In this document: positions 7,363 through 22,142 of the stretch, in pieces
How the letters are laid out: each line of letters starts with the position of its first letter
Numbering within the stretch: the first letter of the stretch is position 1
Virus record (IMG/VR): IMGVR_UViG_3300044732_000309
Location: 1 to 23,643 of that record
Direction: 5' to 3' (one strand)
From: a virus
DNA: 23,643 bases
Made by a program: the position numbers and the translations under genes
Notes under the pieces: generated by a model
Seen by the model: only the letters and a program-made list of their open reading frames with translations
Database searches by the model: none
Told to the model about the DNA's origin: nothing

Positions 7363-7391
7363 CTTATAACATGATTCGCTTAGTTTGTCAA
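7363..7391 (-). promoter_or_regulatory. Sigma70-type promoter of the exonuclease gene
   Basis: Minus strand: TTGACA (7391-7386), 17-base spacer, TATAAG (7368-7363). The A of the ATG at 7357 is the sixth base after the -10 box, so transcription probably begins at the start codon. It occupies the 39-base gap after PhoH. Confidence 0.75.
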
Positions 7392-7396
7392 GTCTT

Positions 7397-8152
7397 TTAT
7401 GCGTATCTCTCCTCATATTCTAGTCTGGCCAGAATATATTCCTTAACTAATTTCGACCTTACTATATCATGAACAGAAAACTCTATAGTTTTGAACGAAG
7501 GCATTAGTTCGGCGATAGCGATGAACTTTTGAAGTCCCGACATATCGTTCTTTTTATATAGATCGGTTTGGCGGAAATCTCCGCAAAAGATGATCTTTGA
7601 GTTTCTGCCAATTCGGGTCATGATTGAGTTAAGTTCCATATCCGTCATGTTCTGACACTCATCAACAATGACGATGGAATTATCTAGAGTGATACCACGA
7701 ACAAATGAGGTGATCATAAAGTTCACCGACTTCTGTTCTTGCAATCGCTGAAATGGCTGGATATGATTAAACAAATCCTCGCAGATTTCTACATAAGGTA
7801 ACTGATAAACTTCTGTCTTTTCTTTCTCATCTCCAGGTAAGTGACCGATTTCTCGTGATGGAACAGCAGAGCGGACAATCACTACTCGCTCAAATACTGT
7901 CTCTGGATTTAGTGCTTCCTCTAGTGCTTTATAAAGTGCGATGTAGGTTTTCCCTGTACCTGCTACACCGTGTAGTAGAGTTGCTGTGGACTGTTGATCG
8001 TATAATTCAAAAAATTGTCTCTGATTGAAGTTCTTTGGTTGAATGTGTTTGAGGTCTTCGTATTTTACCTTGCATAATTTACTCTTCTCTAAGGTTACTG
8101 GAGCATCGTTATTTGAGACAACTTGTAATGGGTTTTGTTTTTTTCTTGCCAT
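7397..8152 (-). CDS. phoH: PhoH-family P-loop ATPase
   Basis: A 251-aa PhoH-like protein. The Walker A motif is GVAGTGKT (62-69), preceded by a Gln-rich motif (NFNQRQFF, 41-48). RSAVPSREIGHLPG (94-107) is typical of PhoH. The Walker B motif is VIVDECQNM (161-169) and the sensor motif is FCGDFRQTDL (189-198). PhoH proteins are ATPases with suspected RNA or DNA helicase activity, widespread in marine phages; the exact role is not settled. AAAGGA precedes the ATG by five bases. A terminator stands 30 bases upstream, so the gene needs its own promoter or readthrough; I see no convincing promoter in the short gap. Confidence 0.93.
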   Translation of the reverse strand: MARKKQNPLQVVSNNDAPVTLEKSKLCKVKYEDLKHIQPKNFNQRQFFELYDQQSTATLLHGVAGTGKTYIALYKALEEALNPETVFERVVIVRSAVPSREIGHLPGDEKEKTEVYQLPYVEICEDLFNHIQPFQRLQEQKSVNFMITSFVRGITLDNSIVIVDECQNMTDMELNSIMTRIGRNSKIIFCGDFRQTDLYKKNDMSGLQKFIAIAELMPSFKTIEFSVHDIVRSKLVKEYILARLEYEERYA

Positions 8153-8181
8153 GACAGTCCTTTAGGGGTTTGAGTTGATAC

Positions 8182-8214
8182 AAAAAAGGCGACTCTGCAA
8201 GCGCAGAGTCGCCT
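8182..8214 (-). terminator. Strong rho-independent terminator ending the radical SAM operon
   Basis: A perfect 12-bp stem (8214-8203 with 8198-8187) with a four-base loop is followed on the minus strand by a T-run (8187-8182). It separates the long leftward operon from PhoH. The remaining gap 8215-8278 also holds a 7-bp inverted repeat with ATAACTG arms, just after the stop of the upstream gene. Confidence 0.92.
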
Positions 8215-8278
8215 AGTGCCGAGGGAGGCACTGTGAATTCGGGAGGTGAAATCGGTATAACTGTCTTCATGCAGTTAT

Positions 8279-8827
8279 TTATTGTGTCGCGTCTTTCCAC
8301 CAGCAAGGAATTTCACGATTTTTCCATTTTGCCATAGTTTTTTTTGCACCTACATAATAGTTACGATATGACTGTAGAGAGTCACCATGTACCTTGTATT
8401 CGTCTGGCATAGCAGGAGTTGGCTGTGTCAGATGACTGACTGGAATATTCTGAGGCGGCTTGCGGAGAAAATACACTAGTCGTTCGGTAGCATGGATTTT
8501 ACCATAGCGATGAGTGTATTCTGCAAGCAAGGATTGGAATAGACATACAAGCCAGTTATAATTATTGTTAGACTGGCGAACCCAGACAGCACTCGGATGA
8601 TTGATATGCGTAGCTTTGTAGAGGACTGTTTCAAGAGTATTGTCTTCCATTCGCCAGCGTTTGATTGACCTGCCATTGGCAGTCTTATCCACATATTCTA
8701 CGCCGTCGATTACGCGATGGGCGGTAGATAGCAGTTGTGCATACTCTATAATCATCTTGACGACATGCTTGTCGTTATGATATTCGGCACACTTGGAAAC
8801 GTCACGGTCCAAATAAAAGATATTCAT
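8279..8827 (-). CDS. Conserved phage protein of unknown function, 182 aa
   Basis: The N-terminus MNIFYLDRDVSKCAEYHNDKHVVKMIIEYAQLLSTAH is a pattern I recall from a conserved protein of T4-like and other environmental phages, always of about this size. It has a His/Asp-rich start (H17, D19, H21 in YHNDKH), a central HINHPSAVWVRQSNNNYNWL and a C-terminal Tyr-rich helix before KWKNREIPCWW. The clustered His, Asp and Cys suggest a metal site, and the conserved Trp/Asn segment suggests an enzyme, but no function is known to me. It is the last gene of the long operon. A good candidate promoter for it lies within the preceding gene (8892-8919). Confidence 0.75.
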   Translation of the reverse strand: MNIFYLDRDVSKCAEYHNDKHVVKMIIEYAQLLSTAHRVIDGVEYVDKTANGRSIKRWRMEDNTLETVLYKATHINHPSAVWVRQSNNNYNWLVCLFQSLLAEYTHRYGKIHATERLVYFLRKPPQNIPVSHLTQPTPAMPDEYKVHGDSLQSYRNYYVGAKKTMAKWKNREIPCWWKDATQ

Positions 8828-8833
8828 AATATA

Positions 8834-9103
8834 TTAACTTTCTTCAATAGATTCACGTATGCAGCGTATGTGATTCTTAGCTACAGTTGATATTATATCA
8901 GATTGGCTGGCAATGTCAAGACATTCTATAACTTCAATTGGGTCCATTGCTAATAAGTCGTCTATCATGTTTCTATTTGGAGTAACCCCAAAAGCATTAA
9001 CGCAAAATAACACAATCTCTATATCAGCATCCGTATACAACGGTATGCGATAACTTCTAGCTTCCTTGCGAAATTTGTTCGGGAACTTTAGAATATTGCT
9101 CAT
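8834..9103 (-). CDS. Unknown small protein, 89 aa
   Basis: I do not recognise this protein. It has a basic start (MSNILKFPNKFRKEARSYR), a hydrophobic middle (IEIVLFCVNAFGV) and an acidic helical region with DDLLAMDPIEVIECLDIASQ. It probably folds as a small helical domain. It lies 11 bases after the carbamoyltransferase stop and 6 bases before the 182-aa gene, so it belongs to the operon. There is no clear ribosome binding site; an AT-rich stretch (AATAAATATTT) precedes the ATG. Confidence 0.6.
   Translation of the reverse strand: MSNILKFPNKFRKEARSYRIPLYTDADIEIVLFCVNAFGVTPNRNMIDDLLAMDPIEVIECLDIASQSDIISTVAKNHIRCIRESIEES
8892..8919 (-). promoter_or_regulatory. Candidate promoter inside the 89-aa gene
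   Basis: Minus strand: TTGACA (8919-8914), 16-base spacer, consensus TATAAT (8897-8892). It would drive the 182-aa gene separately from the long operon. Both boxes are perfect, although the site is intragenic. Confidence 0.55.
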
Positions 9104-9114
9104 GTAAATATTTA

Positions 9115-10548
9115 TTACGAAAAGACTTTCACGCCATATTTGGCCTCAAAATCGTCTGCATCTTTGAAGTTATTCACCATGGGCATACCCTTGATATTGA
9201 GACTCGTATTCAATAGCATTGGACATCCAGTTTCTTCATACCATCTGCTAATAAGTTCATATAGTCCAGAATGTTGCTCTTTTGTCACAGTCTGGACACG
9301 AGATGTCCCATCAGCATGAACAATAGCAGGAAACCGATCAGGATATTTACATCTTGAAGTATATTGCATATAAGGGGAGTCTTCCCATGACATTTCAAAG
9401 TAGTCTCTCGCATGTTCTGCCAGAATGACTGGAGCGAACGGACGAAACTTCTGTCGTTGCTTGATTTCATTTACTCTGTCCTTTATATCATGACCTCGTG
9501 GGTCTGCTAGAAGACTGCGATTGCCTAATGCTCTTGGCCCAAATTCTGCTTGCCCATTTGCTACACCCACTATACCCGTCTTACGCAATTCTGTCAAGAG
9601 TTTTTCTACAGGAAACTCTCCTCCCATATCTGCGCCTAGATATGGGCCCTTCCAGTTAAACTTCTGTCTGTTGTTAGCTGCAATAGCACCTAAAGAACTA
9701 CCCGAATCTCCAGGATTAGGCATAATCCAGACATTATCAAAATACTTTCGTGCAATATGATTTGCACTACAGTTTAACGCACATCCACCCATAAGAACAA
9801 GATTGTCTTGGAAGGTGTCTTTCATCTTTGCGCGTATCAGTAGTTTTTCAAATTCTTCTTCATATACTTTTTGCGTTGCTGCGGCAACACTATAGTGGTC
9901 CAAATCAAAGTCATCATTACGCCACCAACGACATCCGCGATGAAGGTTTTCAGATTCCCAAAGATTTCTAACTTCGTCGTAATATTTTTCGGGTTCGCCA
10001 TATGCTACCATTCCCATTAAGATATATTCATCTTCATTTGCTTTAAGACCAACTCGGTCTGTCATGGCAGAGTAGAACAGTCCCAAAGACTTGGGATAGT
10101 CCATCGACCATTTCTTTTTCAGGTTCTCACCGGAACATTTCCAGATAGACGCGGTATCAAATTCACCGATAGCGTCAATAACGAGAGCGGTCGCATTCTC
10201 ATAAGGCGAAGTGTAAAAGCCAGCTGCGGCATGGGATTCATGATGATATGCAAATTCAACAGGAATATCTTTTAGACCGAATGCCGCAAGATACTGTCTA
10301 ACACTAAATCGAACGAGGCCCTGACCAGATAGCAATCGTCTCATCGCTCTAAGTTTTGGTTTTTCGTACCAGTGTATCTTTTCTGGCTTACCAAATTTTA
10401 ATGCCGCGTGAATTAAATCAGCATTTAAGTCCTTATCATTCTTGATGCCAGAATATCTTTCCGCATGAGAGGCGAACAAAATTTCATTACCAGAAACAAC
10501 AGTCAAAGACGCATCATGTGCTGCGGCAGATATACCCCATTCAATCAT
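9115..10548 (-). CDS. NodU/CmcH-type carbamoyltransferase
   Basis: A 477-aa member of the NodU/CmcH/TobZ family. The N-terminal actin-like ATPase fold shows ISAAAHDASL (6-15), the metal-binding HHESHA (102-107) and ALVIDAIGE (121-129). The region GGCALNCSAN and PGDSGSSLGA follows. The C-terminal domain contains FGPRALGNRSLLADPR and LNTSLNIKGMPM. The family uses carbamoyl phosphate and ATP, via carbamoyl-AMP, to transfer a carbamoyl group to a hydroxyl of a sugar or natural product. The protein is shorter than NodU (about 560-600 aa), as phage versions often are, and the substrate is unknown. The ATG overlaps the stop of a 34-aa gene (ATGATTGA), so translation is coupled. The SGNH-like protein and radical SAM enzymes upstream suggest a shared pathway. 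Confidence 0.93.
   Translation of the reverse strand: MIEWGISAAAHDASLTVVSGNEILFASHAERYSGIKNDKDLNADLIHAALKFGKPEKIHWYEKPKLRAMRRLLSGQGLVRFSVRQYLAAFGLKDIPVEFAYHHESHAAAGFYTSPYENATALVIDAIGEFDTASIWKCSGENLKKKWSMDYPKSLGLFYSAMTDRVGLKANEDEYILMGMVAYGEPEKYYDEVRNLWESENLHRGCRWWRNDDFDLDHYSVAAATQKVYEEEFEKLLIRAKMKDTFQDNLVLMGGCALNCSANHIARKYFDNVWIMPNPGDSGSSLGAIAANNRQKFNWKGPYLGADMGGEFPVEKLLTELRKTGIVGVANGQAEFGPRALGNRSLLADPRGHDIKDRVNEIKQRQKFRPFAPVILAEHARDYFEMSWEDSPYMQYTSRCKYPDRFPAIVHADGTSRVQTVTKEQHSGLYELISRWYEETGCPMLLNTSLNIKGMPMVNNFKDADDFEAKYGVKVFS
9569..9597 (-). promoter_or_regulatory. Candidate promoter inside the carbamoyltransferase gene
   Basis: Minus strand: TTGACA (9597-9592), 17-base spacer, TATAGT (9574-9569). 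It could transcribe the 89-aa and 182-aa genes. Intragenic, low support. Confidence 0.35.
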
Positions 10549-10645
10549 AAATGAACGGATCCAGTTTACGCAATTCTTTAATTCGTTTTAGATACTTTCT
10601 TTTAGCAAAATATGATTTAATCTTGTTTATTAGTAATTTTAGCAT
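10541..10645 (-). CDS. 34-aa basic protein between the SGNH and carbamoyltransferase genes
   Basis: ATG at 10645 lies inside the end of the SGNH gene (29-base overlap) behind a strong ribosome binding site, and the TGA at 10543-10541 overlaps the carbamoyltransferase start. The protein begins with a hydrophobic and basic segment (MLKLLINKIKSYFAK), continues as a Lys/Arg/Leu amphipathic helix and ends in LRKLDPFIYD. Many carbamoyltransferase loci in bacteria and phages, as I recall, carry a tiny protein here with a similar KRDPFIY-like end, some annotated as DUF5989; I cannot verify this. It may be a membrane-associated partner of the carbamoyltransferase. The perfect double overlap and strong binding site make it very likely real. 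Confidence 0.8.
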   Translation of the reverse strand: MLKLLINKIKSYFAKRKYLKRIKELRKLDPFIYD

Positions 10646-11447
10646 AAAGTTCCTCCGCAAAGTATTCGTGGGCTATTTCAGTAGGATGTTTGAAGCCACA
10701 AACACCATGTATTTTCGGGTTATATCTTGAAACCAGAGTTACATCTTGATCGATACAATATTCTAGACTATTTTCTAACATTTTAGTAAACATTGGCAGA
10801 TATTTCCAATCACGTTGAATATCCATAAACATCTCATATTTTGGCTCTACCATTCCTGTTAATAATAGTCCTTTATTGACGACCGGTTGCAAAATAAAAT
10901 CAAATGAATTGGTTAGGCAAAAATTTTTAAAATTTTCCAAAGAAAAATAGTATGATTGCATTATCTTATAATCGTTGTAATGAAGATCCTCTGGTGCATA
11001 ATTTTGATCGCTCATAACTTTAGTTATGGGTATACCATGCTCAGTAAACAACATATATCTATGCGGGGTAGTAAGTCCAAAAAAAATTAAATCTGTGGAA
11101 GGATTTATTTCACCGGAATGAAATGCATGAATTAGTTTTAAGAATGAATGTTCCATAGATAAGCCCGGTTCGGCATAATTGACATGTTCAAGTTCGAGTT
11201 TATTTGCTAATTTAGCGCCATAAGACTTTTTAGATGACATATCATTATACTGGGCATTATCAATATTTGCAACATTTTTTATATAGGTATCAAATTTACC
11301 AACCGACTTCTTTTCAAGAAGATGTTGTTCTTTTAGTTTATTGCATTCATCAAAAGATATTCCAAGAAAATCGTGATCCATGAGTTCATGACCAGAAGTA
11401 AAGGAACAGCCAAAAAATATCATTCGTTTTTTATTGCTAACGTCCAT
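10617..11447 (-). CDS. SGNH-hydrolase-like protein
   Basis: A 276-aa protein with the SGNH/GDSL layout. Block I is FFGCSFTSG (11-19) with the likely nucleophile Ser15. A Gly-Ser segment with EPGLSMEHSF follows, then LIFFGLTTPHR. The final block is CGFKHPTEIAHEYFAEEL, with the catalytic-type His254 before Pro. SGNH enzymes are esterases or acyl/acetyl transferases on sugars and lipids. The block III Asn is not certain here. No signal peptide is seen, so it acts in the cytoplasm. It is preceded by AGGAAA and sits two bases after the last radical SAM gene. Adjacent carbamoyltransferase and 34-aa genes suggest a shared substrate, possibly a glycan. The acceptor is unknown. Confidence 0.75.
   Translation of the reverse strand: MDVSNKKRMIFFGCSFTSGHELMDHDFLGISFDECNKLKEQHLLEKKSVGKFDTYIKNVANIDNAQYNDMSSKKSYGAKLANKLELEHVNYAEPGLSMEHSFLKLIHAFHSGEINPSTDLIFFGLTTPHRYMLFTEHGIPITKVMSDQNYAPEDLHYNDYKIMQSYYFSLENFKNFCLTNSFDFILQPVVNKGLLLTGMVEPKYEMFMDIQRDWKYLPMFTKMLENSLEYCIDQDVTLVSRYNPKIHGVCGFKHPTEIAHEYFAEELYAKITNKQD
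10651..10656 (-). promoter_or_regulatory. Ribosome binding site of the 34-aa gene
   Basis: GGAGGA on the minus strand, five bases before ATG 10645, embedded in the coding sequence of the SGNH gene. It decides that the 34-aa frame is translated. Confidence 0.8.
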
Positions 11448-11449
11448 AA

Positions 11450-12595
11450 TTATTTCCTGTGATCAATAGAAATAGGTCTAGGATTCTCAATTTGCTTATC
11501 CTCTAGAAATGATGCTAAACTATTACGCAAATCTATACATTGTTTCTTCATTTTACTACCATCTAGTAACATAGGAATTTGTTGGTCATATAAAGCTATT
11601 ACATCCTCCAACTCTTTCTTAGGCATGTTGTGACAAGCCATTTGTTCAGGATAATATAGATAATTAAAATTTAACGGTTCTTTATGTGTAAATGTTACAT
11701 ACTGATTAATTATTTGATAGAGTGTAATCGCATCTCGAACATTAAATTTACTAACTGTCATGACAATGGAGCAATTAGAAGTGTTAGTATCAAATTCTTT
11801 TGCTATAATTTCTTCCTGACAATATTTTAAATTGTCAAGAACTTGATTCCACTTCGCACCAACTCTCAATTGTTCAAACTTTTCACCGTAAGAATCGATA
11901 CTGAATGACAGCCATATTCCTCTAAACTTTTTCCAGATTTCAATTTCTTCACGAGACGGCCGTTGCGTACCATTGGTATTATATAACAATTGTGTATTTT
12001 CTGGATTTGGGATTTGATCTAACCACTCAAAATGCGTTTTATTCATAAGCGGTTCACCGCCGGCAATATCAATCCTGAAGTATCCGTTTTTTCCGGGATT
12101 TAATTTTTTGTATTGTTCAAGATTATACGACCAAGCAATTTCTTCGTTGAGACGGTCATATGTTTCTCGGTCCAATTCACCCTTGCGTAACAATTCCGTC
12201 GAGATTGCAGTTGAACAAGCTGGAGTGCATATAGTGCACCGAAGATTACACAATCTTCCAGTTTTTAATTGCAGATATTCCAGAGAAACTTCTTCTGGAT
12301 TAGTTTTCATCAATCCGCCGTCAATAACCCACAAATCTTGTTGACGTTTACTCGATCTACCTTCTTCTTCTGCGAATTTACATTGATTGCAGCCGCTGGG
12401 CCAGATTCCCTCTGAGAGTTGATCTCGGTACTCCTGGAATTCTTCTTGCAAAACTCTCTCGGCATGTTCTATATTAACGAGTTTGCTTTTTTTGTCCTCT
12501 TTATGAATAAAAAGACAGCATGGAGTTACATAGCCATCAGTATCAACATGCACTGATTTCCACATAGACGGACAATAAATTTTGGTTTCGCTCAT
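11450..12595 (-). CDS. Twitch-domain radical SAM protein, copy 6 (CC-type)
   Basis: ATG 12595 overlaps the preceding stop by four bases (ATGA), so it is preferred over the GTG at 12610. The result is 381 aa. N-terminal auxiliary-cluster cysteines: C8, the pair C26-C27, C69 and C72. The radical SAM motif CNLRCTIC (116-123) binds the [4Fe-4S] cluster that cleaves SAM. AGGEPLM (178-184) binds SAM, followed by YNTNGT (205-210) and SIDS (232-235). The C-terminus lacks a seven-Cys SPASM domain, so the extra cluster is supplied N-terminally. It is the most diverged and last copy before the SGNH gene. Family members oxidise peptides, sugars or other small substrates; which applies here is unknown. 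Confidence 0.88.
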   Translation of the reverse strand: MSETKIYCPSMWKSVHVDTDGYVTPCCLFIHKEDKKSKLVNIEHAERVLQEEFQEYRDQLSEGIWPSGCNQCKFAEEEGRSSKRQQDLWVIDGGLMKTNPEEVSLEYLQLKTGRLCNLRCTICTPACSTAISTELLRKGELDRETYDRLNEEIAWSYNLEQYKKLNPGKNGYFRIDIAGGEPLMNKTHFEWLDQIPNPENTQLLYNTNGTQRPSREEIEIWKKFRGIWLSFSIDSYGEKFEQLRVGAKWNQVLDNLKYCQEEIIAKEFDTNTSNCSIVMTVSKFNVRDAITLYQIINQYVTFTHKEPLNFNYLYYPEQMACHNMPKKELEDVIALYDQQIPMLLDGSKMKKQCIDLRNSLASFLEDKQIENPRPISIDHRK

Positions 12596-13860
12596 ATGGA
12601 CAAATACCACTCATATGCTTCAGGATTAATTATTTGTAGTAACTCAGGATATGTTTTACCACCCTTGTTGAACTTATCTCTATATTCATTAGTTTTCTTG
12701 ATTTCCTTCAACAATTCCATATCTTCAAAAAATTCTTTATACATTTCTTTTTCTTGAATATAGGATTTAATAATATCAATACTTTTATCTGCGCCAATCA
12801 TATTGCTGTTTTCAAATCTACTAATAGCATGATTTACCACTTTATCAAAAATATGCTGTGGAAAAAGTCTAATATCTAAAAATCCTTGCGCAGAATGTGG
12901 ATATTGTTCATGATGACAAATATATTTGTGATTATAGATTTTTACATTATATTGTTCAAAAAAATCAAACCAGCGGTCGATGTCCATTAATACCGGAGAC
13001 GAGAGAACAGAAGCAATACCAAATTGTTGATTCTTATTCAGCTTCTCATAATACTCGTCCCAATTGGTTGATACAGAATCCCATCTACCACCATCACGAC
13101 AATACTCAAAGGTTTCATGTGTGCCGTCGATGCTTGCCTGAATAGATGGTTGATAGAATTCCAACATATCTGGAATATTTTTACCATTCCAAGATAACTT
13201 AGTAAGATTTGTATTATAATGGACACCTAATCCTCGAATGTAATCAGAATACTCCGGGTCCGAGGATAGTTGTTCCATCAATTCGACAACCATCCAATGG
13301 ACTTTTGACATCATAGGCTCGCCGCCCGCCCAGTAAATATTCCTACATTCTTTATTTTTGATAGAATCCAAAATTTCTTTCGCGGTATTTTCTTCAAACT
13401 CTCGGTCGACTTTAAATTGTATAGTTTTATTCCACATCTTTTCATAAAGTGACATGTGGGTAGAACTATAAACATATCCACAACTCACGCACTGTAAATT
13501 GCAATAAATTGTTCTATGGTCAAAATAGGTCGGGTTTACACTCATCTCTCCAGTATCAGGATTATACCCCTCGAACAAATCTTTTTCATCGTAATGTCGG
13601 CAACTTTCTTCGCGCAAAGATGGAACATCAATACTCTCAAAATAATAACATCTATTGCAATGGTCTACTTTTTCACCAGATACCATTTTCTTGCGAGTTT
13701 CACGCATAAAATCAGAATTCCAAAACTGGTCTACAGTTGTTTTTTGTAACCCATCAATGTCGTCGGAAATACAACACAATTTTCTTTCATACTGCGAACC
13801 TATATAGGAATGCACAAAAGGATAGGGACAAATTGTATTATTATTAGAATCTATAGTCAT
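12592..13860 (-). CDS. Twitch-domain radical SAM protein, copy 5 (CC-type)
   Basis: A 422-aa protein. The N-terminal cluster ligands are C11, C29-C30, C68 and C71. A longer insert with SLREESCRHYDEKD follows, then the radical SAM core CNLQCVSC (120-127). WAGGEPMM (177-184) is the SAM-binding GGE motif, and HYNTNLTKL and ASIDGTHE are the later strand motifs. The C-terminal 90 residues are helical, with conserved-looking LHP/HKYICHHEQYPH segments and several His. The start ATG overlaps the previous gene by 17 bases, and no shorter start is available before the first Cys. It resembles copies 4 and 6 in its N-terminal CC pair but is only distantly similar in sequence, so the three are old paralogs. 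Confidence 0.88.
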   Translation of the reverse strand: MTIDSNNNTICPYPFVHSYIGSQYERKLCCISDDIDGLQKTTVDQFWNSDFMRETRKKMVSGEKVDHCNRCYYFESIDVPSLREESCRHYDEKDLFEGYNPDTGEMSVNPTYFDHRTIYCNLQCVSCGYVYSSTHMSLYEKMWNKTIQFKVDREFEENTAKEILDSIKNKECRNIYWAGGEPMMSKVHWMVVELMEQLSSDPEYSDYIRGLGVHYNTNLTKLSWNGKNIPDMLEFYQPSIQASIDGTHETFEYCRDGGRWDSVSTNWDEYYEKLNKNQQFGIASVLSSPVLMDIDRWFDFFEQYNVKIYNHKYICHHEQYPHSAQGFLDIRLFPQHIFDKVVNHAISRFENSNMIGADKSIDIIKSYIQEKEMYKEFFEDMELLKEIKKTNEYRDKFNKGGKTYPELLQIINPEAYEWYLSI

Positions 13861-15022
13861 AATCGAATATATCTTTCCATGGGCCCATTTTTCGGCTCAA
13901 CTGCACTACGTCGAGGTATTTATTACCATTATTCCATTGCTCAGATGAATCTGGAGAAAATCTAAGATATGATTTCATTGTTTCAGTCAAAATATAATCT
14001 CTGTATTGAGATTCCTCATAAACCGTAGATAAGTCCTGCTTAAATTGTTTAGACGCACAATTTAACGACAAGTAATCGGGGAATACTATAAAATTCTGAT
14101 TGATTGTAGTATGCGGTTTAAGTTTGGTCAATGGCACTGCCCAATCATAAAATTCAGGTAAAAAGGGTGCATTTAACCACTGAATACTACAAGTAATATT
14201 CATGCCATGAATATATGGATTCTCTAACAATTTGCGAATATTTTCATTTGCGACATCCCACTTTGACGGATATCGAATAAAAGAATTCTTATCTCCTGTG
14301 GCGTCTACACTGCATCCCAACGTGACCACTTTAAAATGTTTCCAATATTCGCTAAAAGAATCGCTATAGGTTGTGCAATTTGTATTATAGCTAATGTGAA
14401 TATTTTTAGCAACATCCCACTCAATTAATTTCTCCAACATTTTCCACTGCATTGGCATAATGAAAGGTTCGCCGCCATTGATATAAAGATATTTCAAAGT
14501 ATCTTTATGTTCTTTCAATTGATCGATGATGTCTTCGTTAAACCACTGGAAATTATCAAAATCTGTATTATTCTTTGTCACGAACGGAAGACTGTCTGCC
14601 CACTCGTTATAATCTGTTACCAAAGCCGAGCTGGAATCTGGATAACACATTAGACATTTCAGATTACATAGATTACTCAATCGCAAATCGATAAATTCTA
14701 ATCCAGGCGTTTCGCGTTTTGGCCAACGAGTATTTTCTGTGGTTCTTCGAGATTTTCCACCATACTGTTCTATTTTATAGCAGCCCTCACAAGCAGATGG
14801 AAATTCCCCATTTAACATCTGTTCGCGGATCTTGTTAACAGACGGAGCATCAAAAATTTCATTTATCGTATGGGTTCGTAGATTTAATAGCTTACCATTT
14901 TCATCTTTGGCAAAACCGCTATCTGGTCCTCCCATTTTAGACACACAACATATGGAAACGTTTCCGTTTGGATGTAGATTCATATGATTAAATGGTAGCG
15001 CACAATAGCCATCATTTCTCAT
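13844..15022 (-). CDS. Twitch-domain radical SAM protein, copy 4 (CC-type)
   Basis: ATG 15022, overlapping the preceding stop as ATGA, gives 392 aa; a longer start at 15037 would create a 19-base overlap. The N-terminus (CALPFNHMNLHPNGNVSICC) supplies C7 and C25-C26, with C78 and C81 in ACEGCYKIE. This is close to the usual description of twitch-type radical SAM proteins, in which an Asn-Gly-x-Val-x-x-Cys-Cys strand precedes the cluster. The core is CNLKCLMC (119-126), then NGGEPFIM (182-189), SYNTNCT and SVDATGD. It is the clearest example of the CC subfamily, so it may be the best representative for database comparison. Confidence 0.9.
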   Translation of the reverse strand: MRNDGYCALPFNHMNLHPNGNVSICCVSKMGGPDSGFAKDENGKLLNLRTHTINEIFDAPSVNKIREQMLNGEFPSACEGCYKIEQYGGKSRRTTENTRWPKRETPGLEFIDLRLSNLCNLKCLMCYPDSSSALVTDYNEWADSLPFVTKNNTDFDNFQWFNEDIIDQLKEHKDTLKYLYINGGEPFIMPMQWKMLEKLIEWDVAKNIHISYNTNCTTYSDSFSEYWKHFKVVTLGCSVDATGDKNSFIRYPSKWDVANENIRKLLENPYIHGMNITCSIQWLNAPFLPEFYDWAVPLTKLKPHTTINQNFIVFPDYLSLNCASKQFKQDLSTVYEESQYRDYILTETMKSYLRFSPDSSEQWNNGNKYLDVVQLSRKMGPWKDIFDYDYRF

Positions 15023-16347
15023 AATGTGTTGTACCATTCTAGCAGTTCTCCTGGAAATACATCTAGTGTTTTATTTCTGCGATGACTGTATTGGGAATAA
15101 AAACTCTTAAAATCTTTACGATTCAATTCCAAGTCATCGTCATATGCGTGAGGAGTTTCGATTACACTTACATAAGATATTAACCGTTCTACGTCACTCT
15201 TTTCATTGCCTATTAATTCGTTTTTATTTTTTTCATACCACACAAGCAACTTCTCATGTGCCGCAGTTCTAATGTTATCAGGAAGAACAGTCAAACTCTG
15301 AAATGCAGGGAATCTAAGAAAATTTATGCTCATCGAAATTCTGTTATTGTATTTGCGCTTCCATTGTTGCACCTGATCCATAAATTCGGTAATATTGAAC
15401 AGACACAAGGCATTAATAGTCATCATCACAACGATACGTTTAACATTAGATTCTTCCAAAATACGTTCTACGTTGTTACACCATGCGTCATAATCTAACC
15501 CATCTCTAATATATTCCGCTTGGGCGCCTGTTGTTTCCATACTTGTAAAGAGACACAGCTTTTCGATATCAAATGACTTTTTGATGAGCCTATCAATAAT
15601 CGATTTCTTGGCGCCCAAATTTGTATTGATGCCAAGTTCGAAAGTATATTTGTTTTCGGCAAACATATCAATCAGCTTCCAAACATCGGTATTCATTAAT
15701 GGTTCTCCGCCTGTTATGCGGAGAACGCGAAGTTTTTGACTAAGTTCTGGCCACCATTCCCAGAATGCCGAGATATACGGATTAGAAGTTTTTTCGTGCG
15801 TATTGTTATATGAACCATCATGTTTAAAGGCACCACCACCTCTAGTTTCCAGTTCATAATATCCGTGCGTCTTGATATCACGTTCCCACGTGGTACTGAA
15901 ATTTGCATTACAGTAACTACATGCAAAATTGCAGGTACGGTCGAACATTACTTCCAGGGTAGGTGGAATAATTCTAGTATCTGCCGGAAGTTCGAACCAT
16001 TCCTGCATCTCATCATTTGTAAACTGTAGAGACTTAAAGACGCGGTCGGAAATAAAAGTATCGCCCATACTTTCAATCTTCCAACAATAATCACATTCGG
16101 AGGGTTTAATACCGTCCTGCATCAACTTGCGCATTTTAAATTTATGATCTGTATTGTGCAACTTAGAAGGATCGATTGCAATCTGTTCAGCATCAATCTT
16201 ATGGACAGGAGGCAGGTGACAACTACTGGTTTCTCCACTATTTAACCAAAGGGTACTATTTCCCCATTTGGCACCACAGAAAGATTTTGATTTAGAATCC
16301 AAAACGGCGTTTCTAAAATTTAACATGGGGTCATCCATAGTAATCAT
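15019..16347 (-). CDS. Twitch-domain radical SAM protein, copy 3 (SCH-type)
   Basis: A 442-aa protein, or 439 if ATG 16338 is used; both overlap the previous gene (17 or 8 bases). This subfamily has FCGAKW (23-28), SGETSSCHLPPVHK (37-50) with a single Cys43 followed by His, and ECDYCWKIE (84-92), giving cluster ligands C24, C43, C85 and C88. The core is CNFACSYC (139-146), then LRITGGEPLM (209-218), INTNLG, and TSMETTGAQAEYIRDGL. PYISAFWEWWPEL just before the GGEP strand is a subfamily hallmark shared with copies 1 and 2. These three are plainly products of duplication within one lineage. Confidence 0.9.
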   Translation of the reverse strand: MITMDDPMLNFRNAVLDSKSKSFCGAKWGNSTLWLNSGETSSCHLPPVHKIDAEQIAIDPSKLHNTDHKFKMRKLMQDGIKPSECDYCWKIESMGDTFISDRVFKSLQFTNDEMQEWFELPADTRIIPPTLEVMFDRTCNFACSYCNANFSTTWERDIKTHGYYELETRGGGAFKHDGSYNNTHEKTSNPYISAFWEWWPELSQKLRVLRITGGEPLMNTDVWKLIDMFAENKYTFELGINTNLGAKKSIIDRLIKKSFDIEKLCLFTSMETTGAQAEYIRDGLDYDAWCNNVERILEESNVKRIVVMMTINALCLFNITEFMDQVQQWKRKYNNRISMSINFLRFPAFQSLTVLPDNIRTAAHEKLLVWYEKNKNELIGNEKSDVERLISYVSVIETPHAYDDDLELNRKDFKSFYSQYSHRRNKTLDVFPGELLEWYNTL

Positions 16348-17755
16348 CGTCCATTAAATATGCAAGTTCTGGAAACGTCTCAACAAATGAGGTTTTTCTA
16401 CGTTTGTCCAGACTTCGAGTATAGTTTCTAAAGTCTTTATATAAAGATTGTGGTTCTTTGGTTGATCTCATATAGTCAACCAATCTTCTTACCTGATCCA
16501 CTTCTTCTAAATAAAATGTTTCTTCGGTAGATTTCAGTTGTGTTAGTTTATGCTGCTCGACGTATTCTATCCATAAGTCTCCAAACTTCTGTTTATCTTC
16601 ATCTGATAATAACGTCAAACATAACATTCTAGGCCAACGAAGATATGAAAGATGGGTTCTTACTCTAAATTCATGTAATTTACTGAAATATCGTAATCTC
16701 ATTTCTCTAATATATTTCAGGTATTCAAGAAGAGTCGGTGCACTAGTCAGATTTATAGTAGTCATGTAATGTAGTCTAGTGGTGTCGGGCGTATTGTCTA
16801 ACACATATTCACAGTTTTTCTTAAACTCATCAAATTGCATACCAAATCTAGAATACTCAGCCTGTTTACCTGTGCTTTCAAGAGAAGTATATACATCAAA
16901 TAATTTAATATTACCAGAGATTCTATTAATATATTCTACTAGTTTCTCAACTAATTTATCAGGAACATTGAGATTGGTATTGATCGCAAGTGTTAAATTA
17001 GGATTTGGATTTTCGGCAATATAGTCAAGGACTCGCCAAGTGTGTTTACTGAGTAGGGGTTCACCACCAGTTATTCTAAACGTATGTAGATTGGGATAGA
17101 GGTCAGGCCACCACTTCCAAAAAGCATCAATATATGGATTTTGTTCTTTACGATGAATTGGAAGTTTTCCAACTTCCTTCAACCATCCAAGATCATGTAA
17201 TTTGAAATCTTCCAGTTCGATTGGACCGTGAGTTTCGATTTCTTCTTGCCATCTTGAAGAACTTTCTGGGCTACAGTATACGCATTTAAAATTACAGGTA
17301 GATTCAAAGGCAACTTCTAAATATGACGGGTCGATATTTGCTCCATCACCAGATTTTACAATTTCATCGATATGCGGGAGAGCCCATGAATATGTGGACT
17401 TGTATATCCTATCACTCATCCAATCTTTATTCAGGTTCTCAATTTTCCAGCAATAATCACATTCTTTAGTTTGTATACCATTGAGCATATCAATACGGGC
17501 TGCTTTTTTTACTGCCGTGTTGTGAATACCCCGTGGATTATCTTTAATATCATCTAAAGTAATTTTATGTCGTGAGGGATGGTGGCAACTATGCGTTTCT
17601 CCGCTATACAGAAGAATAGTCGATTGCTTCCACTTGGCCGCACAAAACGTTGGACTAACAGAATTGATGTCTTCGCGTTTCTCTTTAAGGAAATTCCAAT
17701 AAGAATCAACAGAATGAACATCCAAGTTATGCTCAGTGTGGATATCGTCATTCAT
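16331..17755 (-). CDS. Twitch-domain radical SAM protein, copy 2 (SCH-type)
   Basis: The longest copy at 474 aa, with about 30 extra N-terminal residues before FCAAKW (C38). SGETHSCHHP (51-60, Cys57 and two His) and ECDYCWKIE (C99, C102) complete the N-terminal cluster. The core is CNFKCVYC (154-161); FRITGGEPLL (226-235) and INTNLN follow, and TSLESTGKQAEYSRFGM matches copies 1 and 3. The C-terminal 100 residues are strongly charged and helical. The ATG overlaps the stop of copy 1 as ATGA, indicating coupled translation. Copies 1 to 3 have kept every cluster ligand, so none looks like a decaying duplicate. Confidence 0.9.
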   Translation of the reverse strand: MNDDIHTEHNLDVHSVDSYWNFLKEKREDINSVSPTFCAAKWKQSTILLYSGETHSCHHPSRHKITLDDIKDNPRGIHNTAVKKAARIDMLNGIQTKECDYCWKIENLNKDWMSDRIYKSTYSWALPHIDEIVKSGDGANIDPSYLEVAFESTCNFKCVYCSPESSSRWQEEIETHGPIELEDFKLHDLGWLKEVGKLPIHRKEQNPYIDAFWKWWPDLYPNLHTFRITGGEPLLSKHTWRVLDYIAENPNPNLTLAINTNLNVPDKLVEKLVEYINRISGNIKLFDVYTSLESTGKQAEYSRFGMQFDEFKKNCEYVLDNTPDTTRLHYMTTINLTSAPTLLEYLKYIREMRLRYFSKLHEFRVRTHLSYLRWPRMLCLTLLSDEDKQKFGDLWIEYVEQHKLTQLKSTEETFYLEEVDQVRRLVDYMRSTKEPQSLYKDFRNYTRSLDKRRKTSFVETFPELAYLMDDDYYG

Positions 17756-19068
17756 AATGTTTTACACCATTCTAAAAATTCTGAAAATTCAGGAAATGTT
17801 TCTATTAAACTACTGTTACTTCTACGGTCATATTCCGGAAAAAACTTCGCAAAATCTTTTCTACCATTCAACCGGTATTCGTCGGTGATATTATGCGTAT
17901 CGTTATAGAAATATTCTCTGACACGTTCCATTTTGCCGATTTCAATATCACTGAAACCGTTTTGCTTCATGTATTGAACATCATTATCTATATATGTTCC
18001 AAACTCCGGGGGTAAAATATTCATTGTCCAATGAGGCGGTTCTTTAAGGTGAGGAATATCGATAAGAATTCTCTCGCCCCATTTTTCACGCAATTCAACT
18101 ATTAATTGAAGAAAGTCTTTGAAATAAGGAACAGTCAACACATTATACGTTGTCATGAAACTTAGATATGCGGTAGGGACTGTTTCTAAGACTGTGTTTA
18201 CATTTTCTAAGAACAATTCGTAGTTTAAGCCGCGGCGCATATATTCTGCTTGCTTACCCGTGCATTCAAGGCTTGTAAACAACCGAAGATTTTTGATATG
18301 CTTCTTTTCAATCAAATCATTAACGCGAAGGCAGAAGTCAGTGACTTTTCGATTCGTTACACCCAGGTTGGTATTAATCTGTAGAAACAACTCCGGATTA
18401 CCATCTTCTTTTAACATGTCTAATAACTTGAATGTGTTAGTAGTCATTAGCGGCTCGCCGCCTGTGATGCGAAAAATCTTTAAGTCATTCTTCAAATCTG
18501 GCCACCATTTCCAAAATGCTTCAACATAAGGATTATATTCTTTTTCAGAATAAATCTTATTGTGCAATCCATATTGGTCATAATTCAGATCATAATTGCC
18601 ATGTTGTTTAATCTCATCTTCCCACAGAGAAGAAAATGTAGGACAGCAATATCCGCATTTGAAATTACAAGCATTACTGAAACTAATTTCCATGTTATAG
18701 GGATTTACGTTTTGATCCCAAGGAACATTCTTTAGTGTTTCGATTTCATCGTCTAAAACAAACAAATTGTTTATGGTATCGGTGTTCTTATAAACACGGT
18801 CACTTGTTTTATCTAGATCTTCAATACTCCAGCAGTATGAACATTCGGTCGGTCTTCCGCCCTCCAGCATTGTCTTACGCTGTTGTTTTTCATGTGAAGT
18901 GTTGTGCAGCGCGGCAGGATCCTTGGAAATCTCCTCCAGTGCAATATGCATCGGCGGTGGATGATGACAACTATGCTTATGACCTGAATGGAGATAAAGC
19001 GCAAGCCATCTCCACTTTTGCGGGCAAAAGCCATGTCCGACAGAATCTAATTTTTCTTTTACGCTCAA
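17752..19068 (-). CDS. Twitch-domain radical SAM protein, copy 1 (SCH-type)
   Basis: The first radical SAM gene of the operon, 438 aa. It begins with TTG at 19068, which overlaps the stop of the 134-aa gene (TTGA); no in-frame ATG lies near enough to keep the first cysteine. Cluster ligands: C15 in GFCPQKW, C34 in SGHKHSCHHPPPMH, and C76 and C79 in ECSYCWSIE. The core is CNFKCGYCC (134-142), with an extra Cys142 directly after the motif, unlike the other copies. FRITGGEPLM (199-208), INTNLG and TSLECTGKQAEYMRRGL follow. The weak TTG start may lower its dose relative to the other copies unless coupling compensates. Confidence 0.9.
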   Translation of the reverse strand: MSVKEKLDSVGHGFCPQKWRWLALYLHSGHKHSCHHPPPMHIALEEISKDPAALHNTSHEKQQRKTMLEGGRPTECSYCWSIEDLDKTSDRVYKNTDTINNLFVLDDEIETLKNVPWDQNVNPYNMEISFSNACNFKCGYCCPTFSSLWEDEIKQHGNYDLNYDQYGLHNKIYSEKEYNPYVEAFWKWWPDLKNDLKIFRITGGEPLMTTNTFKLLDMLKEDGNPELFLQINTNLGVTNRKVTDFCLRVNDLIEKKHIKNLRLFTSLECTGKQAEYMRRGLNYELFLENVNTVLETVPTAYLSFMTTYNVLTVPYFKDFLQLIVELREKWGERILIDIPHLKEPPHWTMNILPPEFGTYIDNDVQYMKQNGFSDIEIGKMERVREYFYNDTHNITDEYRLNGRKDFAKFFPEYDRRSNSSLIETFPEFSEFLEWCKTL

Positions 19069-19469
19069 CCTCTACGCATCCTCGAGATTTCTTCCATCTG
19101 ATCTTGATTGATAACTGGCACTGCATTAGATTTATGCATCGTGGCAATACCCTTAATTAGTGTGCCTGTATATTCATTGGGCTTCTTAGCAAACGTGACG
19201 CCGATTCCATCTCCGCTCTCATACTTAGGTGCTTCGCGGCGATATGGTGCAGCATCCATTGGACCTCTCACACAACTCTTTAGTTTGAAGCCGGACTTAC
19301 CTTGGCGATATGCAACATATTCGTCAAACGTCTTGGTCTTTGCACCAATGCGTTTCATCTGCTTATTATAATCTACCCAGTCCTGTGAATATTTTGTAAC
19401 AGGGACTTTAGATTTGCGCTTACGGTTATTGTTAGTGGTATAAGCTGGGCCCAACAGATGCATCGACAT
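19065..19469 (-). CDS. Conserved phage protein, first gene of the radical SAM operon, 134 aa
   Basis: The N-terminus MSMHLLGPAYTTNNNRKRKSK followed by WVDYNKQMKRIGAKTKTFDEYVAYRQGK is a pattern I recall from small conserved proteins of many tailed phages; no function is established to my knowledge. The protein is basic, with one Cys in FKLKSCVRGP (residue 87) and a Gly/Lys-rich C-terminal half (YESGDGIGVTFAKKPNEYTGTLIKGIATMHKS). The ATG at 19469 has AAGGAG at 19476-19481. A promoter lies just upstream, so it is the leader gene of the 11-kb operon. Because this family also occurs in phages without radical SAM genes, a direct link to the pathway is unproven. Confidence 0.75.
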   Translation of the reverse strand: MSMHLLGPAYTTNNNRKRKSKVPVTKYSQDWVDYNKQMKRIGAKTKTFDEYVAYRQGKSGFKLKSCVRGPMDAAPYRREAPKYESGDGIGVTFAKKPNEYTGTLIKGIATMHKSNAVPVINQDQMEEISRMRRG

Positions 19470-19994: not shown

Positions 19995-20134
19995 TGTTTA
20001 ACGACGAAGAACTAGAAGAACATTTCCTTCAAATGGAGAAGGAACTATACGAACTAGAAATTACTTCGAAGTCGCCCGATAAATTCCGTCCCAATCTTTG
20101 GGTTGCGAAGCCTGAAACTCTTCGATCCGACTAA
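19994..20134 (+). CDS. Unknown small acidic protein, 46 aa, overlapping the cyclase gene end
   Basis: It starts at ATG 19994 in the TAATG overlap with the 71-aa gene and encodes MFNDEELEEHFLQMEKELYELE followed by a Lys/Pro-rich end. The first half is a likely acidic amphipathic helix. The last 74 bases lie antisense to the end of the adenylate cyclase gene. Start/stop coupling is the main support; the convergent overlap makes it less certain than its neighbours. No function can be suggested. Confidence 0.55.
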   Translation: MFNDEELEEHFLQMEKELYELEITSKSPDKFRPNLWVAKPETLRSD

Positions 20135-22142
20135 TCATCATATCATAATAATCGGCTAATTGTCCGTCCCAGTATTCGCGTAAATCGGTCGCGTATACTC
20201 GGGCGGATTTCCAGTTTCCAGCCCGGTAATGCGATAAGAACTTGTTGTGTTGATCTTCCATGACATCGATGATATCTTGACCTCGATGGTCTTTTTCTAG
20301 AACTGTAAAGATAGATACGGGTTCTGTTTTACCCTTAACGGCAATCAGGTCAAGTTCTACTACTTGGTATACATCCCTAACCAGTTCGGCCGTTTGTGGT
20401 CCGACGATGAGTTTGACTCCATAAGGCTTGGTTTGACCTTCGAGACGAGCAGCCAGATTAACCCCATCGCCCAAGCAAGTATAATCAAAACGCTGGTCGC
20501 TGCCCATATTGCCAACAACCACAGTGGCAGTGTTAATACCAAGACCCATACCGAAAGCGGGAATGCCTTCTGCTTTAACTTCTTCATTGAAAGTCTCCAA
20601 ATCTTTTAGCATCTGAAAGGCTGTTTGAACCGCATCCAAAGCATGTTTATTGTTATCAAGCGGCGCATTCCAGAATGCCATCTGTGCATCACCAATATAC
20701 TTATCCAGTGTACCGTTATTTTCAAGAATAGCTCTTGTCATGACCGTCATGTAACGATTCATGATTGAAGTCAGACCTTGGACATCTGCGCCATAATGTT
20801 CTGAGATAGTAGTAAATCCTCGAACGTCGGTGAACATAATTGAAAGTTCGCGAGATTCTCCACCAAGTTTCAATAGTTCCGGTTGTCTTTGTAATCTAGC
20901 AACCAAGTCTGGACTCAAATAGGTACCAAACTGTTTCTTAATCTGTTGTTTTTGAAGGAATTCGCTAATAAACTTTACCGTGTAGATATGCATATAGATG
21001 ATTGCGATTGCAAAGATATTAAATGTCACATCAAACAGAATACCCTTGTTTGCGAACAGATATACTGGTAGATAAAAATATCCAGCTAGTAATATGCCGA
21101 TATAAATTATAGAGAAACGAAATCTTGAGAGAATAATCAATGCCAGAGCAAGACCAAGAAAAGCCGCAAGATCCGCAATTACTGACCAGTTCGGAATCGA
21201 AACAGAATCCCCATTTATCAGAGTTTCAAGAATACTCGCCTGAAGGACGTGGGGATGTTGCGCACCTGATGGAGTCGCTACAGGATTCGAAATACCAGCA
21301 GCAGTTACGCCAACAATCGCGATTTTACCACTCAGGACAGGTAAAGGATCCTCTCCAATTTCGTATGACGGAAATTGGTAGTTAGGATTAATGAACGTTC
21401 TTCCATATTCATCTGTTTTAATAGTTTCAAAAGAAGGAATTCGTAATGCTTCAACCCCAGTCTGATTTATCTTGGCTTGATACGAAGAGTCTCCTGCAGC
21501 TACACGCAGCATCTCTAGAGCAAATGCGGGATAGTATTCGCCTTCTGATTGGGATAGAAGAGGAACTCGCCTTACAACCCCATCAGGCTCGGGTAGGGTT
21601 GACGTTATCCCAACACCGGCTGCGGATTCTTGAAGACCTGAGACATTACTTAGAACGCATGGGTATTGAGGAAGAAATTCAGTTGCTTCTCCATCGCCGA
21701 TTACGGCAACGCCTGTCTTCCGAATTGTCTTACTTGCCCGTGAACAAGAGTCACTTACCGTCTGACTCAGAACGACTGGATGTAATCTGAGGGTATCTTC
21801 AAGAACTCCGTCAGTCCCCATCCTATCAGGCTCAGGCATAAGTATAGTGCTACCAACAAGAGCAGCCCCTCTGCCATAAATATCGCTAATAATTTTAGCG
21901 TGGACTTCGCGAGGGAAAGGCCACTGTCCATATTTTTCAATTGCTTTCTCCCCAATATTAACAGTTACAATTTGTTCGGATTGCGTCGGTGAACCGAGCA
22001 TCAAATAATCATAAAACTTCAATCTTGTGGATTCAACCAAGTATGGGTTTGCGAGTTTTACTGTTAACAATACCGCAAAAGTAATCAGTGCCAACCAAGG
22101 CGAGAGTAGAACTTTTTTAGTTTTTTGTATAAGAGTATCCAT
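20061..22142 (-). CDS. CHASE2-domain class III adenylate cyclase, membrane-bound
   Basis: A 693-aa receptor cyclase. A first membrane segment (about 14-32) is followed by a CHASE2-type extracytoplasmic sensor (about 40-315) with the typical FYDYLMLG, INPN, KIAIVG and PHVLQASILETLI. Three membrane segments follow (about 320-338, 343-363, 368-388). A class III cyclase domain (about 430-615) has all key residues: metal Asp439 (FTDVRGFT) and Asp485 (KYIGDAQMAFW), purine-selecting Lys481 and Thr555 (DYTCLGDGVN), and transition-state Asn562 and Arg566. Lys with Thr indicates ATP, class IIIb. A 75-residue helical tail follows. It should make cAMP in the host in response to an unknown signal. It overlaps the curlin-like gene by 26 bases, so the two are co-expressed. 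A receptor cyclase is very unusual cargo for a lytic-type phage. Confidence 0.93.
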   Translation of the reverse strand: MDTLIQKTKKVLLSPWLALITFAVLLTVKLANPYLVESTRLKFYDYLMLGSPTQSEQIVTVNIGEKAIEKYGQWPFPREVHAKIISDIYGRGAALVGSTILMPEPDRMGTDGVLEDTLRLHPVVLSQTVSDSCSRASKTIRKTGVAVIGDGEATEFLPQYPCVLSNVSGLQESAAGVGITSTLPEPDGVVRRVPLLSQSEGEYYPAFALEMLRVAAGDSSYQAKINQTGVEALRIPSFETIKTDEYGRTFINPNYQFPSYEIGEDPLPVLSGKIAIVGVTAAGISNPVATPSGAQHPHVLQASILETLINGDSVSIPNWSVIADLAAFLGLALALIILSRFRFSIIYIGILLAGYFYLPVYLFANKGILFDVTFNIFAIAIIYMHIYTVKFISEFLQKQQIKKQFGTYLSPDLVARLQRQPELLKLGGESRELSIMFTDVRGFTTISEHYGADVQGLTSIMNRYMTVMTRAILENNGTLDKYIGDAQMAFWNAPLDNNKHALDAVQTAFQMLKDLETFNEEVKAEGIPAFGMGLGINTATVVVGNMGSDQRFDYTCLGDGVNLAARLEGQTKPYGVKLIVGPQTAELVRDVYQVVELDLIAVKGKTEPVSIFTVLEKDHRGQDIIDVMEDQHNKFLSHYRAGNWKSARVYATDLREYWDGQLADYYDMMISRIEEFQASQPKDWDGIYRATSK

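Follow-up and report, generated by a model that had tools for sequence, protein, structure and literature searches.

Six consecutive N-terminal-twitch radical SAM genes of a T4-like virus belong to a recurring viral operon and may serve glycan tailoring

Why would a virus carry six radical S-adenosylmethionine (SAM) genes in a row, and what could they make? The question is raised by a viral record of IMG/VR, IMGVR_UViG_3300044732_000309, whose positions 1-23,643 form the stretch of DNA analysed here (the window) and encode T4-like proteins (T4_baseplate, gp32, Gp59, and PhoH). The six radical SAM (rSAM) genes are all intact and lie on the minus strand at 11450-19068; we named them RSA1 to RSA6 by rising coordinate, transcription running from RSA6 to RSA1 (table). 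They take up 7,619 of 23,643 bases (32%), and the first-pass annotation of the window, which had described an array of about 7.6 kb with tight junctions, was correct on both points: when the longest open reading frame (ORF) starts are assumed, the five internal junctions are overlaps of 4, 17, 19, 17, and 19 bases. RSA1 is followed after 2 bases by a gene for an SGNH-like protein, and this one after 68 bases by a carbamoyltransferase gene. With a 134-aa gene before RSA6, nine consecutive minus-strand genes span 9115-19469. Promoter and terminator scans gave background-level results. As reported below, the array is real, intact, and old, and it belongs to a common viral operon.

All six proteins exceed the curated cut-off (170 bits) of NF033640, the NCBIfam model N_Twi_rSAM for twitch domain-containing radical SAM proteins, with scores from 218.8 to 315.1 bits. 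In 14/14 control genomes the model gave weak matches and in 0/14 a match above cut-off, which argues that the match of the array is not due to chance. The proteins share with the model the domain order, twitch then radical SAM core; its name describes an architecture and no reaction, and its scan output mentions neither arrays nor partners. Although pairwise identity to RSA3 is only 21-26%, the alignment of the six sequences showed four invariant N-terminal cysteines (C12, C31, C83, and C86 in RSA3), an invariant CxxxCxxC core (C124, C128, and C131), and an invariant GGEP motif. The same residues are invariant in 73/73 sequences of an alignment around RSA5, and no cluster ligand is missing from either alignment. 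The motifs listed in the first-pass annotation are thus confirmed in all six proteins, each with a predicted second (auxiliary) Fe-S cluster in its N-terminal twitch domain. PF04055 is above cut-off in 5/6, RSA4 staying below it (25.1 of 29.5 bits).

The SPASM model (PF13186) matches only RSA1 and RSA3, both at the N-terminus. A SPASM domain proper, C-terminal and with two auxiliary clusters, was not found in the six proteins: a full SPASM set counts seven cysteines, and the four invariant N-terminal ones represent half of it at most. Domain order also separates the array from solved enzymes, since in anSME, SkfB, SuiB, and PqqE the auxiliary-cluster domain lies after the radical SAM core. BtrN shares the core, and residues 9-81 of the window profile align weakly with BtrN 166-237 (4m7s, E 0.0025); on chain positions, however, its auxiliary-cluster domain follows the core, whereas that of the window proteins precedes it.

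To evaluate how far the copies differ, we placed them in a FastTree tree of 645 radical SAM sequences, taken from loci of viruses and of bacteria, in which the clade cut nodes were picked by eye. The window's six members fall into six separate clades (table), whose support is lowest for RSA5 (0.48), moderate for RSA1 (0.70), and highest for RSA2 (0.92). RSA5 is the commonest member among the fetched loci, a frequency inflated by its having been itself a query. When the window was compared with four relatives, the finite dN/dS estimates were 0.016-0.132 for the rSAM genes, 0.148-0.238 for the SGNH gene, and 0.054-0.060 for the carbamoyltransferase gene; values printed as 0.000 were saturated and discarded, and several finite estimates carry a dS above 2. 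Every RSA has at least one low estimate, and the six genes are under purifying selection. Separate clades with near one member per locus, together with low dN/dS, mark the six, on sequence grounds, as non-redundant and probably not interchangeable copies.

This agrees with half of an earlier claim, according to which six paralogs meant six required steps and no redundancy. A need for exactly six was not supported. Six rSAM genes are found in G002 and G003 as well, while in the sister-clade phages G005, G006, and G007 the rSAM count is five and a different gene, of 194 aa, occupies the RSA6 position; other fetched stretches have from 1 to 12. Loci L013, L108, and L030 are also without an RSA6 ortholog, and G004 and G008 show fewer rSAM genes only since their contigs stop within the array. 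For the 194-aa family, labelled MT194 here, Pfam yields only a weak YunG-like match.

Comparison with close relatives revealed uneven divergence along the array. Between the window and locus L008, identity is 96-98% for RSA3-RSA6, 81% for RSA1, 55% for RSA2, and 51% for the SGNH protein. L008 and L108 have the same RSA2 (100% identity), but their RSA3 and RSA4 proteins agree at just 81% and 79%. Because RSA2 and SGNH diverge in otherwise nearly identical arrays, and because RSA2 is shared with L108, the set appears to be modular, with cassette parts that recombine independently. By analogy, this swapping of RSA2/SGNH alleles resembles surface-polysaccharide loci and would be expected for variation of a surface structure.

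Then, we evaluated how widely the array recurs. The same gene order, with a 100% identical RSA3, is present in the 130,898-base virus contig IMGVR_UViG_3300042544_000912 (G001), where the array lies at 12.8-20.4 kb, away from most virion genes. Two profile scans of IMG/VR each matched at least 599 stretches, of which 581 and 586 were confirmed; the 80 best of each scan entered the further analysis. Merging of overlapping stretches, earlier loci included, gave 136 groups, nearly all fetched with rSAM queries and not independent lineages; nine had no rSAM longer than 250 aa by the first hidden Markov model, some of these being array-less parts of relatives' contigs. At least four radical SAM genes are present in 86/136 groups, and at least five with the full twitch pattern, called by cysteine spacing, in 54/136 (maximum 12 in 21 kb). 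We also examined as long records 24 of the 28 loci on contigs of at least 130 kb (L071, L085, L088, and L132 were omitted): NF033640 exceeds its cut-off in 24/24, with 1 (G014, G031) to 21 matches each. An A-type Fe-S carrier (PF01521) is encoded in 12 of these 24 and was not found in G001; such carriers would suit a raised need for Fe-S clusters in some of the phages.

The recurring layout consists of virion structural genes, a ~110-aa gene, two genes of a family labelled GAIL, a ~115-aa gene, a gene of a family labelled SYDEP, RSA5, RSA4, further rSAM genes, often a gene of a third family (FAM7), then the SGNH and carbamoyltransferase genes. Within the fetched stretches of the 86 groups, structural genes were found in 31, GAIL in 47, SYDEP in 60, SGNH in 52, and carbamoyltransferase in 32. 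Part of the order is fixed: RSA4 comes directly after RSA5, or one gene later, in 72 of the 74 groups holding both, and the reverse order was found in 0. SYDEP is present in 86/136 groups and lies at most three genes upstream of RSA5 in 60/75 groups holding both. Upstream, all eight long records picked for this layout carry a giant ORF (2,977-4,450 aa within the stretch) followed by structural genes. Among named phages, the relatives listed for one structural gene and for one giant ORF are labelled hypothetical, virion structural or, in a single record, baseplate wedge and tail pin; PDB sequence searches with one structural neighbour and one giant ORF returned no credible match. PHROG scans of ten putative tail genes returned nothing in eight and weak virion structural matches in two.

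Regarding the partner genes, the carbamoyltransferase carries both domains of NodU/TobZ-type O-carbamoyltransferases, Carbam_trans_N (PF16861, 2.7e-53, 180.5 bits) and Carbam_trans_C (PF02543, 5.4e-37, 128.4 bits), and was assigned to this type by sequence. Its closest solved relatives are GdmN (1.4e-50), the novobiocin enzyme, and TobZ, which act on hydroxyls of glycosides or ansamycins; these homologues are natural-product enzymes with chains of 576-702 residues, against 477 aa in the window. For the SGNH-like protein, a Pfam scan alone gave no match; nevertheless, the block I Gly-x-Ser (G13xS15) and the C-terminal His254 are invariant in 28/28 aligned relatives and the profile matches the GDSL lipase 4rw0 at 2.1e-4, which places the 10617-11447 product, as a predicted member, in the SGNH superfamily. 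The first-pass annotation had linked both genes to the array, and the link is real without being general: among 38 arrays flanked on both sides, each gene is present in 27, while six have neither, an outcome that the first-pass annotation had named beforehand as refuting its reading.

In 31 groups the carbamoyltransferase gene closes the rSAM run, against three in which it has another position. Exactly one is present in 20/24 long records, within 5.8 kb of the rSAM genes in 16 and 81-86 kb away in four. Most array-adjacent enzymes measure 469-523 aa and form one clade in a carbamoyltransferase tree; a second clade, of 554-615 aa, contains the four distant ones, three bacterial ones, and those of loci L061 and L067 (554-555 aa). 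A clean split into long and short enzymes by distance from the array was considered and proved imperfect, since the long L061 and L067 enzymes sit in array loci.

SYDEP could be called only from its fold. The AlphaFold2 (AF2) model (pLDDT 91) is GT-A-like over the first ~150 residues and resembles B4GALNT1 (Z 10.8, rmsd 3.0 over 142 residues), cellulose synthase (Z 9.7 over 210 residues), and the PBCV-1 capsid glycosyltransferase (Z 9.5), so that SYDEP is a putative glycosyltransferase; GAIL, judged by eye, is a putative glycosyltransferase-like family. Other array neighbours include UDP-glucose/GDP-mannose dehydrogenase, an epimerase also matching GDP-mannose dehydratase, GT2, and GT7, as well as an APS-kinase-type protein in 6 groups and a QueC-type protein in 9. 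FAM7 (L100:13635-14690 and relatives) is a family of ~350 aa found in 33/136 groups, with invariant W, K, N, H, and E residues; it matches no Pfam family, and PDB sequence searches returned nothing credible. It usually adjoins rSAM genes (27 of the 30 members of one cluster lie within 300 bases).

Such arrays are nearly absent from named phages. Among 50,697 named-phage records, RSA3 matched 17, RSA5 and RSA6 two each, and SYDEP and GAIL none. Vibrio phage K566 carries four N-terminal-twitch rSAM genes (137-192 bits, own profile) interleaved with two GT8 genes and a weak, sub-cut-off GT4 match, and Vibrio phage KVP40 carries two beside a QueC-like gene. In SAR11 phage Mosig, a cluster near a VrlC gene combines an rSAM (annotated MoaA, without twitch), SGNH, carbamoyltransferase, a DegT/ArnB aminotransferase, an MT194-type gene, a GT8 match just below cut-off, and an epimerase. 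The marine single-cell virus fragment AG-345-D19 encodes SGNH, a carbamoyltransferase 48% identical to the window's, and then an rSAM that matches RSA3 residues 12-220 before running off the end of the record. Sinorhizobium phage Phosso has three annotated rSAM genes at most 10 kb from structural genes and one further off; the profile-matched one is without twitch.

Bacterial genomes, scanned with an RSA5-type alignment, yielded 60 loci. Forty of these bear titles of Bdellovibrio, Bacteriovorax or Oligoflexia type, and some of the forty lie on contigs of 0.8-3.3 Mb. L235, L236, L240, L245, L199, L202, and L239 bear other titles and are laid out as in the viruses; these are probably phage contigs that ended up in bacterial bins. 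Among genomes drawn from two phyla, NF033640 exceeds its cut-off in 30/114 from the phylum to which G032 (a Bdellovibrionaceae assembly) belongs vs 3/249 from that of G035 (a Beijerinckia assembly), and in 29/113 vs 2/248 once the centre genomes are removed (Fisher p 4e-14); the N-terminal-twitch family is therefore enriched in the Bdellovibrio phylum. In genome G033 alone, 20 matches reach E 1e-30 or lower, including one that stays below cut-off. In Bdellovibrionota genomes G032-G034 and G036 and loci L212, L214, and L222, the genes occur partly as arrays, and L222 keeps the order of the phage clades (4-2-3-A-B, then 5-4).

The fold of the enzymes bears on the substrate. For the RSA5 AF2 model (pLDDT 94), the fold search placed SkfB on top (Z 13.6), tied with DesII and BlsE (both Z 13.3), with anSME and PqqE as further matches, and Foldseek ranked SuiB first. 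DesII and BlsE act on sugar substrates, SkfB and SuiB are peptide enzymes, and many twitch or SPASM enzymes modify peptides; the modelled fold thus does not settle whether the substrate is a sugar or a peptide. By sequence, the best PDB matches of the rSAM profile are MoaA (1.8e-5) and BlsE (2e-4), viperin being also listed.

We give an even chance to the reading in which the array, the carbamoyltransferase, and the SGNH enzyme form a tailoring line whose output would be an unusual sugar or glycan on the virion or on the infected-cell surface. On family grounds, each RSA would generate a 5'-deoxyadenosyl radical and oxidise, dehydrate, epimerise or rearrange a sugar-type substrate at one position; acylation or deacylation would fall to the SGNH enzyme, and the carbamoyltransferase would cap a hydroxyl with carbamoyl. 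The product would probably sit on receptor-binding parts of the virion or on the infected-cell surface. This reading is favoured because the recurring operon joins virion structural genes, glycosyltransferase-type genes, rSAM, SGNH, and carbamoyltransferase genes; because the neighbours and the K566 and Mosig clusters carry sugar-type genes; because the solved carbamoyltransferase homologues act on glycoside or ansamycin hydroxyls; because the fold neighbours of RSA5 include DesII and BlsE; and because RSA2/SGNH alleles swap within otherwise near-identical arrays.

Several observations weigh against glycan tailoring. MoaA is the best sequence match of the rSAM profile, and the first-ranked structures for RSA5 are a peptide maturase (SkfB) and a peptide enzyme (SuiB). 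SYDEP and GAIL have no Pfam and no credible PDB sequence match; moreover, SYDEP was not found in G001, the window's relative, in which a GAIL-like gene lies 40 kb from the array. The structural genes adjoining arrays carry weak annotation only. The QueC-type protein, which adjoins some arrays and the KVP40 genes, fits nucleobase or cofactor chemistry better than sugars. Finally, SGNH is present in only 12, SYDEP in 9, and carbamoyltransferase in 6 of the 60 bacterial loci, several of these looking like phage contigs in bacterial bins; the general lack of these partners speaks against a universal sugar role.

Three other substrates are possible and can be ranked, peptide above diffusible product and this above DNA. 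The enzymes could modify a polypeptide, either an adjoining virion structural protein or a ribosomal peptide, each adding one cross-link, epimerisation or oxidation. We judge this unlikely, even though several fold matches of RSA5 (SkfB, SuiB, anSME, PqqE) and the frequent adjacency to virion structural genes agree with it: the overlapping window genes leave no room for a precursor gene, the sole abutting small gene (19065-19469) is present in just 6/136 groups and hence is no general partner, the recognised accessory genes are mostly sugar-type, and Pfam and NCBIfam scans of ten operon-region proteins revealed neither an RRE domain nor a precursor family, although this leaves virion proteins as candidate substrates. 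Somewhat less probable again, in our view, is a diffusible product of the infected cell, whether a small molecule, a cofactor or a nucleotide (for example an antiviral-type nucleotide or a redox cofactor). It would suit the MoaA, BlsE, and viperin matches, the QueC-type neighbours, and the chromosomal arrays of predatory bacteria, and virome papers, cited here and below for the parts of their text available to us, have guessed in this direction: a Baltic study presents three contigs with PF13186 and PF04055 as tentative ahbD, for heme (PMC9301287), and a Baikal study ties viral radical SAM genes to PQQ (PMC7678222). However, apart from the QueC-type protein, the scanned neighbours hold no recognised cofactor-pathway gene, and the placement beside virion genes would be left unexplained.

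Hypermodification of DNA bases ending in carbamoylation is in our opinion improbable. It has a precedent in a phage-borne carbamoyltransferase of the same Pfam families that acts on 5-hydroxymethylcytosine (5hmC) (Yang et al. 2021, PMC8670742); moreover, G001 encodes a TET-associated glycosyltransferase (TAGT) family protein (PF20691, 1.4e-43), and QueC-type proteins adjoin some arrays. The published enzyme, however, measures 63 kDa and pairs with a thymidylate-synthase homologue (PMC8670742), while the array-linked ones, except those of L061 and L067, are mostly 469-523 aa and form their own clade; the published sequence is absent from our tree. PF00303 was not found in 9/16 records with an adjacent carbamoyltransferase, G001 included, an absence that is weak as the records are linear and possibly incomplete. 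Tet_JBP (PF12851) is above cut-off in 0/24 records, with a weak 17.2-bit match in G018, G001 again being possibly incomplete, and TAGT is present in 1/24. DNA modification, considered as the principal explanation, was disfavoured on the PF00303 and Tet_JBP searches and the carbamoyltransferase tree. The TAGT protein lies at G001 2583-3536 (L014), on a contig without detected TET, and a search of the other 23 virus records with rSAM genes gave no counterpart. Lastly, the family might simply have expanded, its copies being redundant or decaying and serving no ordered pathway. This would agree with the 1 to 12 copies per stretch, but we hold it to be very improbable given the near single copy per locus in each window clade, the 72 to 0 order of RSA5 and RSA4, the low dN/dS where estimable, and the invariant ligands.

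Glycan tailoring could also be set in a wider frame, which is speculative and in our estimate rather unlikely. Large phages and predatory Bdellovibrionota, both of which dock on bacterial prey, may have in common a portable toolkit, with up to a dozen or more rSAM enzymes of the N-terminal-twitch type, that would build a new radical-tailored modification of a surface glycan or adhesin, with one fixed step per clade; RSA2/SGNH swaps would then alter the decoration, and hence recognition or exclusion.

As for earlier work, the first-pass annotation regarded the pathway as undescribed. This holds for function, since the open-licence PMC literature offered mentions and guesses and no tested function for N-terminal-twitch arrays; it does not hold for the gene sets, as T4-like marine viruses with multiple rSAM genes are in print (PMC5332604, PMC7029224). 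The T4-like ocean genome TARA_ERS488813_N000010 (183 kb) contains 12 radical SAM genes and is probably the same phenomenon; in the available text they are mentioned as Fe-S genes, without subfamily, order or pathway (PMC5332604). Pelagimyophage host-recognition islands are variable and hold radical SAM cassettes with tail fibres and glycosyltransferases, and these phages have CsgF/CsgG as G001 does; the available text gives no rSAM order, clades, carbamoyltransferase or function (PMC7029224), and the G001 array, in contrast, lies away from most virion genes. Prevalence of radical SAM genes was also reported in Tasman Sea viromes (PMC7150976, available text).

Table. Operon genes of the window, with the clades of the rSAM members in the 645-sequence tree
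Feature	Position	Strand	Length (aa)	Evidence and remarks	Clade sequences	Clade loci	Loci with more than one copy	Clade support
O-carbamoyltransferase, short array-linked clade	9115..10548	-	477	PF16861, PF02543, GdmN match, tree				
SGNH-like hydrolase or acyltransferase	10617..11447	-	276	Motif conservation, profile match				
RSA1, N-terminal-twitch radical SAM	11450..12610	-	386	NF033640 218.8 bits; last rSAM gene	18	17	1	0.70
RSA2, N-terminal-twitch radical SAM	12592..13860	-	422	NF033640 236.9 bits; allele-swapped among close relatives	60	60	0	0.92
RSA3, N-terminal-twitch radical SAM	13844..15037	-	397	NF033640 314.5 bits	63	61	2	
RSA4, N-terminal-twitch radical SAM	15019..16347	-	442	NF033640 275.2 bits	95	85	10	
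RSA5, N-terminal-twitch radical SAM, AFWxWWP type	16331..17755	-	474	NF033640 315.1 bits	168	152	15	0.477
RSA6, N-terminal-twitch radical SAM	17752..19068	-	438	NF033640 300.5 bits; first rSAM gene of the operon	8	8	0	
134-aa gene	19065..19469	-	134	Overlaps RSA6 start; phrog_27048 1.6e-18				

Outside the operon, the window encodes on the minus strand, at 6319-6692, a permuted two-piece tmRNA of alphaproteobacterial type (Rfam tmRNA_permuted 103.4 bits, alpha_tmRNA 75.9 bits), for which ARAGORN gives the tag ANDNVAFAGYALAA. A curli-type cluster lies at 20061-23571 on the minus strand and, in G001, at 5113-11777, where CsgF, CsgG, and FecR genes are present. Next to these in G001, and likewise in the window, come genes for a 484-aa protein, whose start looks signal-like by eye, and for a CHASE2 adenylate or guanylate cyclase; CsgF/CsgG are published for pelagimyophages, in a source whose available text does not mention an adjoining CHASE2 cyclase (PMC7029224). 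At 5025-5570, also on the minus strand, a 181-aa protein with an NPPW motif, a by-eye Rossmann-like N-terminus, and no Pfam match is possibly a DNA methyltransferase.

Large phages appear to reserve as many as a dozen neighbouring genes for oxygen-sensitive radical chemistry; the order of these genes is partly fixed, and purifying selection acts on them. The question can be addressed in named phages, as smaller versions of the array exist in K566 and KVP40 and related clusters in Mosig and Phosso. If glycan tailoring is true, phages would run a large family of sugar-modifying radical enzymes, which would be a source of new biocatalysts and would bear on host recognition and re-coating in sea and fresh water.

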